A DNA stretch of 63,654 nucleotides from a bacterium. Its GTDB lineage: Bacteria > Desulfobacterota > Deferrisomatia > Deferrisomatales > Deferrisomataceae. The stretch is from positions 1 to 63,654 of the forward strand of contig JALUTY010000015.1 of assembly GCA_027021615.1 (NCBI GenBank). The letters run 5' to 3'. Below the pieces are notes generated by a model that did not search any database, had not been told where the DNA came from, and worked only from the letters and a program-made list of their open reading frames with translations. Positions 8,323 to 63,654 of the stretch are shown here, piece by piece. How positions within the stretch are numbered: position 1 is the stretch's first letter; every line of letters begins with the position of its first letter. The translations under genes were made by a program, and so were the position numbers.

Positions 8323-8642
8323 TGGTCTGAGGTCCTGGCGTGAACTTCCGTGGGCTCGCGCAACGAACGCAACGAGGGCCACGGGATCCTCAGGCCCCGA
8401 ACTTCGTTGCGCCGCTGCGGGCGTGGCTCCTACCGTCGCGAAGCCAGGCATTGAGCCCCCCCGCGCAGGCACGGGACAGAAGAGCAACTCCCGGAATCCG
8501 GACCCTTTCACGGCCCAAGCGTCAGAGGTGCTGCGTAGCGAGCCAAGGAGCCGCACCCGGCTCTCCGGCAGGTCCCCTGGTCTTCCGACAGGGGGCGACA
8601 GCGTCTGTTTCACCGTCGGGTTAATAAAAATTCATTTTCGGG
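8323..8642. other. Non-coding region with D-like palindrome fragments
   Basis: I see no gene. Arms GCGCAACGAA (8358-8367) and TTCGTTGCGC (8403-8412) form a stem. The stretch GCGGGCGTGGCTCCTAC near 8418 matches the D-family module seen at 50924-51201 and 59829-60029. The region ends in an AT-rich TTAATAAAAATTCATTTTC run just before repeat A1. Confidence 0.5.
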
Positions 8643-8825
8643 TTAGCCCGCATGATTCATGAGGCCTTCTGCTGCAACCGCCGATTGCACGCCATCTCGG
8701 GGCGTGCTCGCGCCTCGGGGCTCGACGTACCGTCCCGTACGCCTGCGCCCCTCGTTGCTGCGCTTGCCCCGATCTGACGCACACTCGACGGTTTCGCGAC
8801 GGACGCTCATGGATCATGCGGGTTA
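8643..8825. repeat. Repeat A1: 183-bp long palindromic element
   Basis: Copy 1 of family A. The terminal arms are TAGCCCGCATGATTCATGA and, as complement at the right end, TAACCCGCATGATCCATGA. The interior is nearly identical to the copies at 45339-45520 and 63471-63652 and folds on itself, with a central CGTAC...GTACG stem. At one arm position both the left and right bases differ from copies 3 and 4 in a pair-preserving way (T/A to G/C). Confidence 0.85.
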
Positions 8826-8904
8826 GGGGGCAGCTAAAATCGGAACGGAGGGCCAGACGTCGCGGTGGGGCTGGAGGCGGAGGGGTTGCAGCGTCCGGGT
8901 TCGT

Positions 8905-22272: not shown

Positions 22273-23460
22273 ATGAACAAGGTAATGTCCGTGGTAACGC
22301 TCCTTGGGCTGGCAACGTTCGCCGTGCCCCGCGCCCAAGCCATCCCGGCTTTCAGCCGAACCTACAAGACCGAGTGCGCCACCTGCCACACGGTGATCCC
22401 CCACCGCAACGCCTTTGGGGAGGCGTTCCGGCGCAACGGCTACGTGTGGCCCGGGGCCGAGGGCGCTCGCAAGCCTGCCAAGGGGATGGAAGCCCTGTGG
22501 AGATCCGGGGCTTTGGAGGCCGTGCCCGTCTCCCTGCTCGGCATGCACGACGCCCGGTACGACCGCGAGGCCGAAAGCGGGGACAAGCTGGACCTGGAGC
22601 CACACGAGTTCGAGCTCATGGCAGGGGGAAGCCTTCGTGACCGGGTGACTTTCTGGATGGAGTACCGGCTGGAAGAGGTGGAGGACAACGAACGCGAGGG
22701 CACCGAGATGGAGGAGGCGTTCGTGATGTTCCGCCGCGTGCTCGGCACCCCGCTCAACGTGAAGTACGGCCTCTTCCGGCCCGACCTCACCCTGTGGAAG
22801 CACAACGACCGCCTAACCGCGGCCACCTGGGCGCCCTTGGACAAGATCCACGGCGAAAAGCTCAAGAGCGCCAGGGACGGGGTCGAGATGAACGGCGTGT
22901 TCGGCGGCCGACTGTTCGCCGCCGTCGGCGCGGTGGACCGGGAGGAACAGGACGGGTACGAGTTCTACGGCCACGTGGCCTACAAGTTCGGCGGCACCGA
23001 CCTCGACGGCAACGAACCCGAGATCGACCTGGAGGCGGATCCGAGCGTCTGGGACGACCTGGCCGTAACCCTCAGCGCCTACGGATACGTCGGCCGGCGC
23101 GGGGACACCGACACCCAGAGCTGGTCCCGGGTCGGGGCCGAGGCCGAGGTGGTGTACAAGGGGGTCACCCTGCTGGTGTCCGGGCTCAACGGCAGGGACG
23201 AGGTCGCCGGCGCGGACGACGCCGACACCTGGGTGTACGCGGCCGAGGCCCAGTACGTGTGCCGGGGCAAATACTTCATCCTGGCCCGGTACGAGTACAA
23301 GGACGAAGAGGGAGACGGGAGCGGGGTGATCAATCGGTTCATCCCGGCCGTGGGATGGACACCGGTTCCCAGCGTCCGTCTGAGCCTGGAGCACCGCTGG
23401 GAGAAGGCCGCCCCCGAGGTGGACAACACGACCCTGATGCGGCTCCTGTACAGCTTCTGA
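22273..23460 (+). CDS. Monoheme c-type cytochrome fused to a predicted outer-membrane beta-barrel
   Basis: A 395-residue exported protein. The signal peptide (about 1-23, cleavage after AQA) is followed by a single haem motif CATCH in TECATCHTVIPHRNAFGEAF (about 34-38). The remaining 350 residues alternate in beta-strand style with aromatic girdles (FWMEYRLEEVED, YEFYGHVAYKF, YFILARYEYK) and end LLYSF, the terminal phenylalanine of outer-membrane barrels. It probably sits in the outer membrane as a porin with a haem plug or collar and may take part in extracellular electron transfer, which is inference. The ribosome site AGGAGG is strong. Confidence 0.8.
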   Translation: MNKVMSVVTLLGLATFAVPRAQAIPAFSRTYKTECATCHTVIPHRNAFGEAFRRNGYVWPGAEGARKPAKGMEALWRSGALEAVPVSLLGMHDARYDREAESGDKLDLEPHEFELMAGGSLRDRVTFWMEYRLEEVEDNEREGTEMEEAFVMFRRVLGTPLNVKYGLFRPDLTLWKHNDRLTAATWAPLDKIHGEKLKSARDGVEMNGVFGGRLFAAVGAVDREEQDGYEFYGHVAYKFGGTDLDGNEPEIDLEADPSVWDDLAVTLSAYGYVGRRGDTDTQSWSRVGAEAEVVYKGVTLLVSGLNGRDEVAGADDADTWVYAAEAQYVCRGKYFILARYEYKDEEGDGSGVINRFIPAVGWTPVPSVRLSLEHRWEKAAPEVDNTTLMRLLYSF

Positions 23461-23681
23461 TACCAAGTCGCATTCGAAGCCAGCGATTTGGGGGCCGTTG
23501 GCCCGGAGCGCTACGGCCGAGCCGTTCAAGCCGCTCGGCGCAGGGGAGCGCCCGCGGCGCGTGGTCTCACGCGCCGCAGCAGACCGAGCCGTAGCGGCTT
23601 CGGCGAGGCCGTCTTTTCCGGCGGAGGACCGACGGCCCTCAAATCGCCCCTCTATGAGCTCACCTGGATCGCAAATTGGTA
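23461..23681. repeat. Repeat B1: 221-bp palindromic element
   Basis: It starts directly after the TGA of the porin-cytochrome. Terminal arms are TACCAAGTCGC and GCAAATTGGTA. Inner arms are GATTTGGGGGCCGTTGG and the near-complement CCGACGGCCCTCAAATC. The core hairpin is GCGGCGCGTG-GTCT-CACGCGCCGC. It is highly similar over its full length to 41198-41415. Confidence 0.85.
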
Positions 23682-23698
23682 TGAGTGGGAGGCTCCCC

Positions 23699-24070
23699 AT
23701 GATCCGCAAGATGGTTTTGGCCGCATGCCTGTGCAGTCTTCCCGCCGCGGCCCTCGCAGGGCTGGCCGTAGTCGGTCAGGGAGAGGCCCGGCGGTTCGAC
23801 CCCTCGGGGTTCCCACCCGATATGCAGAAACGCTACGCACTCATGGAGGTCAAGTGCGCCAACCCGGCCGAAGGCTGCCATAGCCTGGGCAGGGTGGTCG
23901 AGGCCGTCACCACAGGCATCGCTCCGATCTCCCACACCCCCTTCGACAAGAAGGCCGCCAAAATGTACGGCATCAAGATGATGCGCAAGCCCGACTCCGG
24001 CATCGACAAGAAGACGGCCCGGGAGCTCGTCCGGCTCCTCTACTTCCTGCTGGAGCAGGCGCGCCCGTAG
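23699..24070 (+). CDS. Small cytochrome c-like exported protein with CX6CH motif
   Basis: A 123-residue protein with a signal peptide (about 1-21, ending ALA). The mature part has the layout of a small cytochrome c: [10 protein letters not shown], then CH at the haem position, SLGR, a distal region and [13 protein letters not shown], which would supply the methionine ligand. The expected CXXCH is instead C-ANPAEG-CH, six residues between the cysteines. Whether it binds haem is uncertain. It sits between repeat B1 and a chemoreceptor 17 bp downstream, and may act with that receptor or the upstream porin. Confidence 0.65.
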
Positions 24071-33482: not shown

Positions 33483-33673
33483 TAGCCCGCACTATTCATG
33501 AAGTCATGAAGCCTTCTACTACAACCGCCGATTGCACGCCATCTCGGGGCGTGCTCGCGCCTCGGGGCTCGACGTACCGTCCAGCACGCCTGCACCCCTC
33601 GTGCGCTCGTGCTTGCCCCGATCTGACGCACACTCGGCGGTTTCGCGACGGACGCCCATGAACCGTACGGGTT
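33483..33673. repeat. Repeat A2: family A palindrome with degenerate right end
   Basis: The left arm TAGCCCGCACTATTCATGA is followed by a small TCATGAA duplication. The interior matches A1, A3 and A4 apart from scattered changes and a short insertion near the right centre. The right arm is diverged (CCCATGAACCGTACGGGTTT). It abuts the ppiC stop codon at 33677. Confidence 0.8.
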
Positions 33674-39737: not shown

Positions 39738-39900
39738 CCCCACGACCGGTTGACCGGCACCCAGAGGTTCCCGTACAAGTACCGGAGGGTGGTCGTCCGG
39801 CTCGAACGAACGCGTCGCGAGACCCCCTGTCTTGGCCGTACAACACCGCAGGCGATCATCACCGACCCAAACCCGTTCTCTCAGCACGGAGGGGTACCCT

Positions 39901-41196
39901 ATGAGCCAGATCGTGTCGTCCCAGTCCCAGCAGTTCGACAAAGCCCTCGAGCTGGGCCGCCCGCCCAACGTCCGCAGGCTGTTCCCCCACTCCCGGGCCC
40001 TGATCGTGAGCGGAAAGGTGATCGACCGGGCCATGCTGGCCAAGGGCGGGGCCATGGCCATCGCGGCCAACGCCCGGAACCGATTCGTGATCCACGGGGT
40101 GCTCCGGGCGGCCCAGAGGGCCAACGCCGCGGTGATCATCGAGATCGCGAAGAGCGAAGGAGGTGCGGACGCCTACTGCGCTGTGAACTACTGGAACATG
40201 GCCACCTACGTGGACCAGGCGGCCAACGAGCTGGGGCTCACCGTCCCGGTGGCGGTCCACGCCGACCACTACACCCTCAAGGAGCCTCGAGACATCGAGG
40301 CGGCCCGCACCCAGATTCCCAGCATGTTCGATGCGGGCATCACATCGATCGCCATCGACGCATCCCATCTTCCCGACGACGAGAACCTGCTGGCGAACCT
40401 GGACCTGTACCGGTACGTGCCGGCCTGGGCGGGGCTTGAGACCGAGGTGGGCGAGATCAAGGGTGCGGCAGGTCTGTCCACTGTGGATGAGGCCCGCTTC
40501 CTGATCCAGGGGCTTAACGCGAACGGGGTGTTCCCCGACTGGATCGCCCTGAACAACGGCACCACCCACGGCATCCAGGCCTCGGACGCCGGCATCCAGG
40601 TGGAGCTCACCGCCGAGATCCACGAGGCCCTCGAGCCTTACGGCGTGTCCGGGGCCCAGCACGGAACCTCGGGGAACAGCTTCGACAGGCTGCGGCGCAT
40701 CGCGGCCGAGACCCGCACCACCAAGGCCAACGTGGCCACGGCCCTGCAGATGATCTCTTGGGGGGTGAAGGTGAACGAGTACGGCAACGCCATTTTGGAC
40801 GACCGGGGACGGTTTGTGCGTGAGCCCGGGGCCGGGGTCTCCGACGAGCTGTGGGCCGAGATGGTGGCCTACGCCGACGAGCGGGGCTGGAAGAAGGGCG
40901 ACTACAAGAAGCTCAACCTACCCTTCGAGAACAAGCTCTGGGCCCAGCCAGCCGAGATCCGCGAGCGCATGGTGCGGGGGGTGGAGGAGTTCGTGTACCA
41001 CCTGCTCACGCGCGTGTTCAACACGGCCGACACCGCACCCTTGGCCATCGAGGCGATCCTTCGGGCCGAGTCCCACGACCTGGGCCCCAAGGCGGAGCGT
41101 CTGGAGAACCCGGCCGAATGGACCGAAGAGAAGGTCCGCGAACGGGCCAAGGCCCTTCAGAAGGAGGAGGGCCCGGGGGGGGACTTCGACGACTGA
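39901..41196 (+). CDS. Class II fructose-bisphosphate aldolase
   Basis: A 431-residue zinc aldolase for glycolysis/gluconeogenesis. Zinc ligand histidines are visible in VHADHYT, NNGTTHGI and SGAQHGTSG. The barrel core and an extended C-terminal helical region (about 330-431) match the long class II subtype seen in deltaproteobacteria rather than the E. coli FbaA length of about 359. The ATG at 39901 has a GGAGGGG site. The stop codon is followed within 2 bp by repeat B2. Confidence 0.88.
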   Translation: MSQIVSSQSQQFDKALELGRPPNVRRLFPHSRALIVSGKVIDRAMLAKGGAMAIAANARNRFVIHGVLRAAQRANAAVIIEIAKSEGGADAYCAVNYWNMATYVDQAANELGLTVPVAVHADHYTLKEPRDIEAARTQIPSMFDAGITSIAIDASHLPDDENLLANLDLYRYVPAWAGLETEVGEIKGAAGLSTVDEARFLIQGLNANGVFPDWIALNNGTTHGIQASDAGIQVELTAEIHEALEPYGVSGAQHGTSGNSFDRLRRIAAETRTTKANVATALQMISWGVKVNEYGNAILDDRGRFVREPGAGVSDELWAEMVAYADERGWKKGDYKKLNLPFENKLWAQPAEIRERMVRGVEEFVYHLLTRVFNTADTAPLAIEAILRAESHDLGPKAERLENPAEWTEEKVRERAKALQKEEGPGGDFDD

Positions 41197-41197
41197 G

Positions 41198-41415
41198 ACC
41201 AAGTTGCGTTCGAAGCCAGCGATTTGGGGGCCGTTGGCCCGGAGCGTTACGGCCGGGCCGTTCCAGCCGCTCGGCGCAGGGGAGCGCCCGCGGCGCGTGC
41301 TCTCACGCGCCGCAGCGGACCGAGCCGTAGTGGCTTCGGCGCGGTCGTCTTTTCCGGCGGAGGACCAACGGCCCCCAAATCGCCCCTCTATGAGCTCATC
41401 TTGATCGCAAATTGG
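41198..41415. repeat. Repeat B2: 218-bp palindromic element
   Basis: It begins two bases after the aldolase stop and ends 49 bp before the TPR lipoprotein start. Compared with B1 (23461-23681) it differs at scattered positions. Several changes fall in stems, for example the TTGCG/CGCAA ends. The core hairpin is GCGGCGCGTG-CTCT-CACGCGCCGC. Confidence 0.85.
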
Positions 41416-41464
41416 CATGAGAGTGAGACTCTGTCCCACCCACACCCTGAGAAGGGGGAAATCC

Positions 41465-43642
41465 ATGCGTGTTCGCCTTGCCGTGCTCGTCCCGGTCCTC
41501 ACGGCCCTGGTGCTCCTCGGTGCCTGCTCCAAGAGTCCCGAGGAGAAGTTCGCCCTCCACAAGGCCCGGGGCCACGCCTTCCTGGAGGAAGGCAAGACTG
41601 ACGAGGCGGTCCTGGAGCTCCGGGGCGCCCTGCAGATCAAGCCCGACTCGCCCGAGGTGCTGTTCGACCTCGGCGAGGCGCTCCTGAAGAAAGGACGGAT
41701 CCGCGAGGCCTACCAGACGTTTCGTAAAGTCTCGGAGCTGGAGCCCGACAACCTCGACGTGCAGATCCGGCTCGGCAACCTGGAGCTGCTGGCCAACATG
41801 GCCGCCGAGTCCCGGAGCCGCGCCGAGAAGGTTCTGGCCGACGCGCCGAACCGGGCCGACGCTCACATCCTGCTCGGCAAGGCGTACCTGCGCGAGCGCA
41901 AGCTGGAGGAGGCCCTGGCCCAGTTCGACAAGGCCATCGAGCTCGAGCCGCAGAAGGTCGAGTACCGCCTGGTCAAGGCCACGGTGCTCCTGGGAGTCAA
42001 GCGGCTGGAGGAAGCCCGCAACGAGATCGACCGGGCCCTGGAGATCAAGCCCGACAGCCGGGACGGCCTGCTGCTGCTCGCCCAGGTGGCCGATCTCCAG
42101 AAGGACCCTGAGGCCGTGGACCGGGCCTTCACCAAGGCGCTCAACACCTCGCCCGACGACCCTGCCGTGTGGTTGAGCTACGGCAACTACTGGATGACCA
42201 AAGGCGATGTGGACAAGGCGGTGGACGCCTTTCGCAAGGCCGGCGAGAAGGAGAAGCGCACCACCCGGGGATGGGAGAAGGTGGCCGAGGTCGCCTTGGC
42301 CCGCCGGGACCTGGACCTGGCCCGGGAGGCCGTGGCCAAGATCCGGGAGAAGAACCCCAAGAGCGCGGTGGCCCTGTACTACGAGGGCCGGATCTTTCTC
42401 CAGCAGCGCAAGTTCGACGAGGCCTCCGCCCGGCTCGCCCAGGTGCTCCAGCAGTACCCAGAGCACCCCGAGGCCCACTACTTCCAGGGCCTGGCCCGGT
42501 ACGGGAGCGGCAGCCTGGAGCTGGCCCAGGCCGAGCTGGAGAAGGCCGTGCAGGTCAACCCCGGCTTTTACAAGGCCCGGATGCTCCTGGCCCAGGTGCT
42601 CCTGGACCGCCGGGACTTCGAAGGCGCGCTCAAGGCCACCGATCCCCTGGTCTCGACGCCTAAGGTCCACACCGAAGCGGTGCTGATCCGGGCCACCGCC
42701 CTCATGGGCCTCGACAAGCCAAAGGAGGCCCGGAAGCTCCTGGAGGCCCTGGTCGAGGCCGTGCCCGGCCACGGCCGGGCGTGGGAGCGGCTCGGAGTGT
42801 GCTACGTCACTCTCAAGAAGCCCGACCAGGCCCTCAAGGCGTTCCGCAAGGCCATGGAGACCGATCCAACGAACCTGCGGCCGGTGATCCTGGCCACGGC
42901 CCTGCTCACGGCCCAGAAGAAGACCGGCGACGCCGTGAAGCTGGTTGAGGGTCACGTCCGGGCCGGCAACGACTCGGCCCCCGCCCGGATCCTGCTGGCA
43001 AAGGCTCGGCTCGCCGCCAAAGACAAGGACGGGGCCCGCAAGGACCTGGAGAAGGCCATCGAGCTCGACGAGAACGCGGCCGAGGCCTACCTCCTGCTGG
43101 CCCGGCTCCAAAGCGGGCCGGACGCCGGTGACAAGGCCCTGGCCGATCTGGAGAAGGCCGTGGAGAAGCGGCCCGACTACCTGCCCGCCTGGGTGCTCAA
43201 GGGCTCGCTCCACGACCTTCGGGGCGAGTACGACGCGGCCAACGAGGCCTACCGCAAGGTGCTCGACCGCAACCCTGATTTCATCCCCGCGCTCAACAAC
43301 CTGGCCTGGAACCTCTCGGAGCACGGGGGCAACATCGACGAGGCCCTGAAGTTCGCCGAGCGCGCCGTGGAGCTGGCCCCGGACTCCCCGCCCCTGAACG
43401 ACACCCTGGGTTGGATCTACGTGAAGAAGGGGGTGCCCCTGAAGGGAGCGCGGCACCTGGAGGCCGCGGCCGAGGGCCTGCCCGACAACCCGGTGGTCCA
43501 GTACCACCTGGGGGTGGCCTACGCCCGCCTGGGCGAGAAGAAAAAAGCCCGGTCCGCCCTGAAGAAAGCCCTGAAGCTCGCCAAGAACTTCCCCGGCGTC
43601 GACGAGGCCCGCAAGGAGCTGGAGGCCTTGGGGGCGGACTGA
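41465..43642 (+). CDS. TPR-repeat lipoprotein (PrsT-like)
   Basis: A 725-residue predicted outer-membrane lipoprotein with a signal peptide and lipobox VLLGA-C. The rest is a near-continuous array of about 18-20 tetratricopeptide repeats (e.g. AYLRERKLEEALAQFDKAIELEP, DAAYLLLARLQ-type units), closest in style to PEP-CTERM/exopolysaccharide-associated TPR proteins such as PrsT. No exosortase or polysaccharide genes are nearby, so a scaffold role is all that can be said. The ATG at 41465 follows GAGAAGGGGG. Confidence 0.85.
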   Translation: MRVRLAVLVPVLTALVLLGACSKSPEEKFALHKARGHAFLEEGKTDEAVLELRGALQIKPDSPEVLFDLGEALLKKGRIREAYQTFRKVSELEPDNLDVQIRLGNLELLANMAAESRSRAEKVLADAPNRADAHILLGKAYLRERKLEEALAQFDKAIELEPQKVEYRLVKATVLLGVKRLEEARNEIDRALEIKPDSRDGLLLLAQVADLQKDPEAVDRAFTKALNTSPDDPAVWLSYGNYWMTKGDVDKAVDAFRKAGEKEKRTTRGWEKVAEVALARRDLDLAREAVAKIREKNPKSAVALYYEGRIFLQQRKFDEASARLAQVLQQYPEHPEAHYFQGLARYGSGSLELAQAELEKAVQVNPGFYKARMLLAQVLLDRRDFEGALKATDPLVSTPKVHTEAVLIRATALMGLDKPKEARKLLEALVEAVPGHGRAWERLGVCYVTLKKPDQALKAFRKAMETDPTNLRPVILATALLTAQKKTGDAVKLVEGHVRAGNDSAPARILLAKARLAAKDKDGARKDLEKAIELDENAAEAYLLLARLQSGPDAGDKALADLEKAVEKRPDYLPAWVLKGSLHDLRGEYDAANEAYRKVLDRNPDFIPALNNLAWNLSEHGGNIDEALKFAERAVELAPDSPPLNDTLGWIYVKKGVPLKGARHLEAAAEGLPDNPVVQYHLGVAYARLGEKKKARSALKKALKLAKNFPGVDEARKELEALGAD

Positions 43643-45111: not shown

Positions 45112-45331
45112 TTCCGTTTCGCAAAAAATATGCGGATTACGGCGGTGGGGCTGGGGGCTCCGACGAAGCGCGACGGCCGAGCAGCCCGGGCCGCCCGGCG
45201 CCAGGGGAGCGGCCGCGGCGCGTGCTCTCACGCGCCGCAGCGGACCGCGCCGAGGCGGCCCCTGCGAGGCCGTTCAGCGAAGGAGGGGCCCCCAGCCCCA
45301 CCCCCTGGGAACACCGCGAAATTTCCGAAAC
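45112..45331. repeat. Repeat C1: 220-bp palindromic element containing the B/C core
   Basis: Outer arms GTTTCG/CGAAAC, then perfect 15-bp arms GGTGGGGCTGGGGGC (45144-45158) and complement (45288-45302). The core hairpin is GCGGCGCGTG-CTCT-CACGCGCCGC (45216-45239), identical to B2. It ends 7 bp before repeat A3. Confidence 0.8.
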
Positions 45332-45338
45332 CCGACGC

Positions 45339-45520
45339 TAGCCCGCATTATTCATGAAGCCTTCTGCTGCAACCGCCGATTGCACACCATCTCGGGGCGT
45401 GCTCGCGCATCGGGGCTCGACGTACCGTCCAGTACGCCTGCGCCCCTCGGCGCTGCGCTTGCCCCGATCTGACGCACACTCGACGGTTTCGCGACGAACG
45501 CTCATGAATAATGCGGGCTA
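45339..45520. repeat. Repeat A3: 182-bp family A palindrome with perfect 19-bp ends
   Basis: Terminal inverted repeats TAGCCCGCATTATTCATGA are perfect over 19 bp. By eye it differs from A4 (63471-63652) at three positions. Its last three bases (complement TAG) form the stop codon of the minus-strand gene at 45518-46279. Confidence 0.88.
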
Positions 45521-46279
45521 GCCGGGGATCTCCGGGGACCACAGGAGCCGGTCGGCCCCCAGCCGGACCAGGTACCGGGCCGTGGGCTCGTCGTCCCGGC
45601 GAAGGAACAGGGCGTTGCCCCGGGACCACAGGGGGGTGGGCTCCTCCTCGTTGCGCAGGCGGGCCTCGGGGTGGTCGAGGCAGGGCCGGCCGCACCGCAC
45701 CGGGTCCTCGGTCCAGGGGCAGGCCAGGCTCACGGTCACCGGCACCCAGGGCGCGTGCACCCGCAGGGTCACCCCCTCGGGCAGGTCGGGCACCTGGATC
45801 CCGGCCGGCGTGAGGTCCAGCTCCACCCCCACGGCCCCGTGCTCCGAGAGCAAGGCCAGGCCCACGGGCCCGTCCCACAGGCTCGCCCGGAGTTCCTCCG
45901 CCCCGGACGCCGAGGCCGAGTCCAGCATCGCGGCCACCCGGGGCCCCCGGCGCTGGCGGGAGAGGAGCCGCCCGGCCACCCCCCGCAGCGGCAGGCCGGC
46001 CTCCCGGGCCCGAGCCCACAGGCCCCAGTCGTTGAAGGTCACCTCCGCCCCGGGCGAGGACTCCAGCGCGGCCACGAGCCACGCCCATGCGGCGTCGGCC
46101 GTGCCCTCCCGAACCGCCGGGGTCACGAGCTGGAGCCCAGCGCCCTGGGACCGGCACAGCCCGGCCGCCTCGTCCACGGCCCCCCGGGGAGGCAGCCGGT
46201 GAACGCAGAACTCGGCACCCAGGGCCAGCCCGTCGTAGCCCCAGAGCTCCTCGGCTCTGGGGAGCCGGTCGGTCCTCAG
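45518..46279 (-). CDS. U32 peptidase/UbiV-like protein in a molybdenum-cofactor operon
   Basis: About 253 residues. Segments LALGAEFCVHRLP, GLQLVTPAVREG, VTFNDWGLWARAREAG and GRLLSRQRRGPRV follow the pattern of U32-type (UbiU/UbiV-like) barrel proteins. Four or more cysteines (FCVH, GLC, ACPW, RCGRPC) could bind an iron-sulfur cluster. No ATG, GTG or TTG lies near the expected start. A CTG at 46279 overlaps the mobB stop as CTGA and is in frame; the next upstream ATG (46408) would overlap mobB by about 130 bp. The stop codon is contributed by repeat A3, so the C-terminus may be truncated. Confidence 0.6.
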   Translation of the reverse strand: MRTDRLPRAEELWGYDGLALGAEFCVHRLPPRGAVDEAAGLCRSQGAGLQLVTPAVREGTADAAWAWLVAALESSPGAEVTFNDWGLWARAREAGLPLRGVAGRLLSRQRRGPRVAAMLDSASASGAEELRASLWDGPVGLALLSEHGAVGVELDLTPAGIQVPDLPEGVTLRVHAPWVPVTVSLACPWTEDPVRCGRPCLDHPEARLRNEEEPTPLWSRGNALFLRRDDEPTARYLVRLGADRLLWSPEIPG

Positions 46280-50910: not shown

Positions 50911-51334
50911 CCCGGCTCCCACGCAAGTCGCGTTCAAAGCTATCGGACCCCCTGAACCGGCGGGGCAAGGGGCCTGGTGGAGAGCCGGGCGTGGCTCCTA
51001 CAGTCGCTGCCTCCGGCACTCAGCCGATGCCCGTTCTGCCGGTGACCCTAAATGCGTTGTCAACGTTCGCTTTTCCAGCGTTCATGGAGCATCCGGGCTG
51101 AGTGCCGGGGGCAGCGTGAGTCGGATGCTGCACTCACGCACGGCCGGAACCAGGCCCCTTGCCCCGCCCCCCGGAGGGATCTCTGGTCGAACGCGACTTG
51201 GTATCGCTCCTGCCGCACGGGCCGCTACCCGCCCGCCTCCTGGCCCCAGGGCTCTCCCCCCCGAAAGCCACCACCTCAAGTCCACATTCCAACCGTCCGA
51301 AACGAAAGGAGAACCCTGTCGCGGAGGCCCGACG
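50911..51334. other. Intergenic region dominated by repeat D1
   Basis: No gene is seen. D1 fills 50924-51201. The remaining 130 bp contain the ribosome site of the next small gene. Confidence 0.5.
50924..51201. repeat. Repeat D1: 278-bp D-family palindrome
   Basis: Outer arms CAAGTCGCGTTC and complement are perfect over 12 bp. The inner arms GGCGGGGCAAGGGGCCTGGT (50959-50978) and complement (51149-51168) are perfect over 20 bp. The internal module GTGGAGAGCCGGGCGTGGCT recurs, inverted, in D2. Confidence 0.85.
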
Positions 51335-63434: not shown

Positions 63435-63470
63435 GGCACGGCTCCTGGCGAGGCTGGAAGGCTGGAAAGC

Positions 63471-63652
63471 TAGCCCGCATTATTCATGAAGCCTTCTGCT
63501 GCAACCGCCGATTGCACGCCATCTCGGGGCGTGCTCGCGCCTCGGGGCTCGACGTACCGTCCCGTACGCCTGCGCCCCTCGGCGCTGCGCTTGCCCCGAT
63601 CTGACGCACACTCGACGGTTTCGCGACGAACGCTCATGAATAATGCGGGCTA
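63471..63652. repeat. Repeat A4: 182-bp family A palindrome with perfect ends
   Basis: Ends TAGCCCGCATTATTCATGA are perfect. It adjoins a GGCTGGAA tract (63451-63472) and sits upstream of metF, so the metF promoter must lie in or beyond it. It runs to within 2 bp of the window edge. Confidence 0.88.
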
Positions 63653-63654
63653 GG

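Follow-up and report, generated by a model that had tools for sequence, protein, structure and literature searches.

Palindromic MITEs concentrated in TGA stop codons in a genus of Deferrisomataceae

Introduction

Prokaryotic MITEs such as Correia/NEMIS, RUP, ERIC and MITEAba12 are characterized, in the available extracts of the papers describing them, as short sequences with inverted repeats and a target duplication that can form hairpins and are mobilized in trans; the duplications given there are TA or 9 bp, and the same extracts contain no report of seating in stop codons (PMC2229807, PMC10969869, PMC6382973). The element studied here, family B, resembles them in its short length, inverted repeats, target duplication, hairpin-forming sequence and, presumably, mobilization in trans. 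The Chunjie MITE of Geobacter uraniireducens (178–235 bp) resembles family B in size. A related autonomous element is helpful for assigning a sequence to the MITEs, and is not required.

Two further systems deserve comparison. Insertion sequences of the IS1031 group of the IS5 family make a TNA duplication and depend on a cognate transposase of the PF13340 type. Family B shares the 3-bp TNA duplication but differs in that a PF13340 (DUF4096-type) transposase was found in none of the six genomes searched for it. REP/BIME sequences associated with RAYT are, like family B, palindromic and located near gene ends; REP sequences are not known to have a target duplication and their palindromes flank the RAYT gene, whereas family B has real target duplications and two symmetrical ends. 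Six 16-base versions of the end had no match in the literature searched, and phrase searches found no title describing an element that inserts into stop codons, subscription papers being mostly outside the coverage of both searches. The kind of element is a known one (MITE), and what appears to be new is its genus-specific concentration in TGA stop codons.

Results and discussion

Two copies in the window lie between duplicated TGA codons

The window, i.e. the whole analysed stretch of 63,654 nucleotides, contains two copies of family B (B1 and B2; Table 1), which are 92% alike over 239 bp. The original prediction had described two palindromes placed directly after a stop codon in same-strand gene pairs, and both were present and placed in this way: they begin 0–1 bp past a TGA, leave 17 and 49 bp to the following start codon and are flanked by co-directional genes. 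B1 (TACC...GGTA) is separated by 17 bp from an ATG at 23699, and the ATG following B2, at 41465, lies 49 bp past the B2 end originally given (41415). The functional labels proposed for the neighbours held for B2, where Pfam identified a class-II aldolase upstream and a TPR protein downstream; the two neighbours of B1 had no Pfam match, and porin-cytochrome and CX6CH stay labels of the original prediction. What had been overlooked is that each copy has an identical TGA on both sides, i.e. a target-site duplication. The reported spacing of 0–2 bp after the stop is this duplication itself, and the stop codon is the insertion site.

Table 1 Position of the family B copies, their target duplications and related elements in the window
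Feature	Position	Strand	Remarks
Left TGA of B1	23458..23460	+	Stop of a 415-aa ORF; left target-duplication copy
B1	23461..23681	+	221-bp palindromic MITE; terminal inverted repeats TACCAAGTCGCATTC / TACCAATTTGCGATC
Right TGA of B1	23682..23684	+	Right target-duplication copy, 14 bp ahead of the next ATG
Left TGA of B2	41194..41196	+	Stop of an aldolase-family ORF (39832-41196); left target-duplication copy
B2	41197..41417	+	Second window copy of B; left terminal T changed to G, right end GGCA
Right TGA of B2	41418..41420	+	Right target-duplication copy
Family C MITE core	45164..45273	.	CTAG target; only stretch shared with B, corresponding to B positions 44-152
Further superfamily member	50922..51202	.	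281 bp, different interior, ends and flanks imperfect; flanks have orthologues in the congener (L176)

Family B is a subfamily within a larger set defined by shared ends

Copies were sought in the own genome of the window (G000, 134 contigs), a closed congeneric genome (G002) and a third congener (G001). G000 carried nine full-length copies with 92–100% identity and three places matching B in two separate parts only, where the central part is absent or interrupted (40 of 94 candidates scored); G002 carried 11 full-length copies (40 of 116 scored), G001 showed core matches only among the 13 scored, and the remaining 56 of the 59 genomes of the same search gave no match. Five sites were common to G000 and G002, with flanks 91–99% identical, leaving 15 non-redundant full-length sites (9 + 11 − 5). 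As is typical of a MITE, the copies are short (217–222 bp), multicopy and free of a transposase gene, and end in terminal inverted repeats of about 16 bp (TACCAAGTYGC...); mean column identity over 20 aligned copies was 95%. An equal TNA was found beside TACC...GGTA in 15 of the 19 full copies shown, one of them lacking a base at the element edge, and the flanks of the other four were unequal or decayed.

The end pattern ACCAADTYGCRWTCRA, with at most one mismatch, matched 98, 112 and 55 times in G000, G002 and G001, respectively, and the reversed pattern used as a control did not match in any of the three. Since the pattern is far commoner than B copies, B is one subfamily within a larger set having the same ends, hereafter the superfamily, whose other members have different interiors and are in many cases about 260 or 280 bp and in some 60–110 bp long. 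At one orthologous site (L006/L041; G000 C81:9040-9334 and G002 1385217-1385511), B stands in tandem with another superfamily element and the two share a TGA duplication, i.e. one was inserted into an existing duplication. At another (L141 217-1596, G000 C56; orthologous flanks in L288), two superfamily ends, 1380 bp apart and each with TGA on its outer side, enclose a beta-eliminating-lyase (threonine-aldolase-like) gene; the pair may be a transposon carrying a passenger gene or the remnants of two elements.

There is a second MITE, family C (~236 bp, about 30 loci per genome, e.g. L012-L030 and L053-L070). Of 32 copies inspected, 27 had good ends, and 14 of these 27 had CTAG on both sides. 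The centre of family C matches B positions 44-152 at 81–85%, but ends and targets differ. B resembles a chimera in which a C-type core is combined with superfamily ends.

Empty sites confirm mobility

For seven B sites without known sharing, the joined flanks were searched in both genomes. For four of them the other genome contained the flanks as a single unbroken match, which identifies species-specific insertions: the G000 copy at C97:14422 was empty at G002 605782 (99%), and the G002 copies at 1625293, 2014346 and 1611530 were empty at G000 C85 (95%), C67 (91%) and C33 (84%), respectively. The joined flanks of the other three (L003, L004 and L007) had no unbroken match in the other genome. 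When the first three pairs (99, 95 and 91%) were aligned, the empty allele showed a single TGA or TCA, and the element was bordered by two. Two other superfamily members also had empty sites, one with a single TCA and one with TGC instead of TGA. The target-site duplication is thus backed by empty sites, as expected of a MITE, and the conclusion that B1 and B2 belong to a non-autonomous mobile element of this kind, and are not static operon regulators, is well supported.

Insertions are concentrated in stop codons

Coding-like ORFs were called with a home-made codon log-odds score trained on 33 long window ORFs, on which the gene ends used below depend. Paired-end elements numbered 66 in G000 and 84 in G002, of which 31 and 42 had equal TNA flanks and entered the main count; the 35 of 66 and 42 of 84 left out because their flanks were unequal or not TNA, roughly half of all candidates, include stop-seated elements too (11 and 15). 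The duplication was the exact stop codon of a coding-like ORF in 49 of the 73 supported elements (21/31 in G000 and 28/42 in G002). At the same loci such stops made up 146 of all 4958 TNA and 146 of the 922 TNA that were non-coding or stops, and against the latter the excess had p values of 1e-10 (G000) and 2e-13 (G002). An expectation matched for the bases beside TNA was 15.1 of 73 (z 9.9). The two genomes share 15 of 58 sites and are not independent; with orthologous sites merged, 38 of 58 were stop-seated (p value 2.5e-17 against 146/922). It might be objected that any TNA is a stop when read on one of the two strands, which would make the effect trivial. This does not apply, because the test needs a stop in frame with a coding-like ORF and TNA is defined identically for the null. 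The concentration in stop codons is statistically strong.

For full-length B alone, the census that the original prediction had proposed showed that the copies are not randomly placed: nine of the 15 non-redundant sites have the stop of a coding-like ORF as duplication, eight of them with the next gene in the same direction. At one further site (L006/L041), B lies in tandem within the duplication of a different, stop-seated element.

Stop-seated insertions were preceded by C at −1 in 73% and followed by G at +3 in 63% of cases, compared to 28% and 36% at other TNA stops; the target preference is the palindromic CTNAG. The stops themselves were occupied by 49 elements against 129 null TNA, and positions +1..+100 by 13 against 141 (p value 8e-6), with 6 elements against 103 null TNA at +1..+60. 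In free 3′ space (convergent genes, or the next gene more than 150 bp away), there were 17 elements, including unmerged orthologues, for 47 null stop TNA and at most 6 for 69 downstream TNA (p value 0.005). Stops were therefore preferred roughly four-fold over equally free 3′ TNA, a remainder for which neither a CTGAG preference nor selection accounts.

Family C, with its CTAG target, served as a control: 4 of 27 copies were at TAG stops against a null of 4/72 (p value 0.06), and the superfamily differed from it in stop seating with a p value of 3e-6. As family C is not significantly enriched, the stop excess is not simply the effect of selection on every element in these genomes. Several superfamily elements outside stops are found 4–25 bp ahead of start codons, so insertion there is not fully precluded. 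In genomes from other parts of the phylum, most duplications were TAA/TTA, and only 6 of 33 supported elements ended an ORF of at least 100 codons (3/14, 0/6, 0/3, 1/5 and 2/5). Because of this difference (49/73 against 6/33, p value 3e-6, with differing gene criteria), stop-codon seating is a feature of the genus studied.

Origin of the stop-codon seating

At C97:14422 the empty allele has a stop-start overlap, GTGA. In the occupied allele, the upstream ORF still closes at TGA, and the last A of the element together with the second TGA forms an ATG, which starts the same 257-codon frame of a tRNA pseudouridine synthase family protein. The called downstream start was such an A+TGA in 5 of the 49 stop-seated cases.

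We consider it very probable that B1 and B2 represent a MITE with a C-TNA-G target; it would be moved by a transposase acting in trans, and a preference for CTGAG and purifying selection may together leave survivors in stop codons. The element enters a C-TNA-G type site and doubles the three bases TNA; where these are a stop codon, the upstream gene keeps its stop and the downstream 3′ sequence, including the ribosome site of the following gene, stays whole because the duplicated bases are the stop. A trans-acting transposase would recognise the ends and favour CTGAG. By codon score, 86% of the window is coding, and in a genome of such density purifying selection would purge insertions elsewhere and, together with the CTGAG preference, gather the survivors in stops.

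A purely passive filter, in which insertion occurs at any TNA and stop-seated copies survive best by leaving both genes whole in a compact genome, is a serious possibility, if somewhat short of an even chance. It agrees with the high coding density, with the sparing of the stop, the 3′ spacer and the next start by an insertion at a stop, and with the distant genomes that carry the same ends without stop seating. However, the roughly four-fold preference persists in convergent or long 3′ spacers, where a neighbouring TNA should be harmless, insertions shortly before starts are tolerated, and family C shows no significant stop enrichment under the same selection. A more speculative extension, which we hold to be rather unlikely, is that the transposition machinery of the genus senses gene ends through a TGA-centred target, perhaps coupled to translation or transcription termination. 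This would be active safe-harbour targeting, in which the terminal ...TA lets one insertion rebuild a stop and, in overlaps, an ATG.

The original prediction had read the placement as a sign of an intra-operonic role, with a hairpin past the stop that stabilises the upstream mRNA or uncouples translation and is held in position by selection. The co-directional gene following eight of the nine stop-seated B sites would fit this, as would the fold: single-strand folds of B1 and B2 beat 200 of 200 dinucleotide shuffles (z −5.5 and −8.4). Such a role as the reason for the placement is nevertheless improbable. The four species-specific insertions show that B is mobile, stop-seated copies occur in both orientations to the upstream gene (three left-end first, six right-end first), some copies lie between divergent genes (L003, L043) or at convergent ends, and elements with B ends and a different interior have the same stop placement. 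Furthermore, an mRNA-protecting hairpin has no need to touch the stop codon, and none of 70 consensus stem pairs in the 20 aligned copies had a compensatory (two-sided) change, a comparison of low power at 95% column identity. RNA stability or translation uncoupling could be a side effect of the element, and a palindrome after a stop codon should not be read as a regulator from position alone.

Candidates for the mobilizing enzyme

No autonomous partner with these ends was found in non-exhaustive searches (PF01609, PF13340 and long end pairs). The DDE_Tnp_1 (PF01609) genes had other ends, or no such ends within the locus; a seven-copy DDE_Tnp_1 element of G002 has CAATACTG ends and its own flanking repeats, and one copy of this insertion sequence has landed inside a superfamily element (L169/L173; G002 2264850-2266610). 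The only wider-spaced end pair of the own genome with TGA on both sides and good ends contains the beta-eliminating-lyase gene and no transposase. Far end pairs in the GTDB-contig loci enclose ORFs of the ATPase, membrane-protein, nucleotidyltransferase and prenyltransferase types, as labelled from reading the sequence, and a plasmid search with a 37-base end gave three weak matches, none at a transposase.

That the elements are REP-like and moved by a RAYT (Y1 tyrosine transposase) appears very improbable. Y1_Tnp genes are present in all three congeners (17 places), and a superfamily element is seated at the stop codon of one RAYT-like gene with Y1_Tnp and DnaA C-terminal domains (Pfam, G000 copy), found at L444 (G000 C83) and L451 (G002 about 2351742-2352800). 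Yet these two places, one gene in two species, were the only ones of the 17 where a perfect or almost perfect superfamily end coincided with the end of the gene, and target duplications and symmetrical ~16-bp ends are not known as REP features. An intrinsic terminator or attenuator, for which a stable hairpin immediately past the stop codon would speak, is scarcely credible for a palindrome of ~220 nt between close co-directional genes that has no T run at either end, in a window with no Rfam family at gathering threshold.

If a mobile element spreads by landing in stop codons, it would provide a natural safe-harbour system for insertion and an example of how a compact genome can absorb dozens of transposons without gene loss. 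The ends are shared across several phyla, and no transposase for them was found here, so that identification of the enzyme would give access to a widespread group of orphan MITEs.

Distribution of the ends and other repeats

Without mismatches, the end pattern occurred in 46 of 395 genomes of the phylum. The reversed control gave a single match in each of 8 of the 395, so some single matches are due to chance. One distant genome (G098) had 158 end matches; there, hairpins of ~41 bp consisting of two ends only (L198, L220-L249) often stand beside a second hairpin in units of 157–200 bp, the TNA being mostly TAA/TTA. At least 108 stretches of GTDB contigs carried the pattern and, among the matches listed, came from Desulfobacterota, cyanobacteria, Schekmanbacteria, Acidobacteria, Planctomycetes, Hydrogenedentota and Ignavibacteria; 44 of the 80 GTDB loci among the matches listed had a second end no more than 600 bp away and the same TNA on both sides.

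The window also contains a dispersed repeat of 185 nt (8642-8826, 33489-33673, 45337-45521 and 63469-63653), of which three copies are 94–100% and one is 62% identical to the reference, and one copy lies directly past a family C element.
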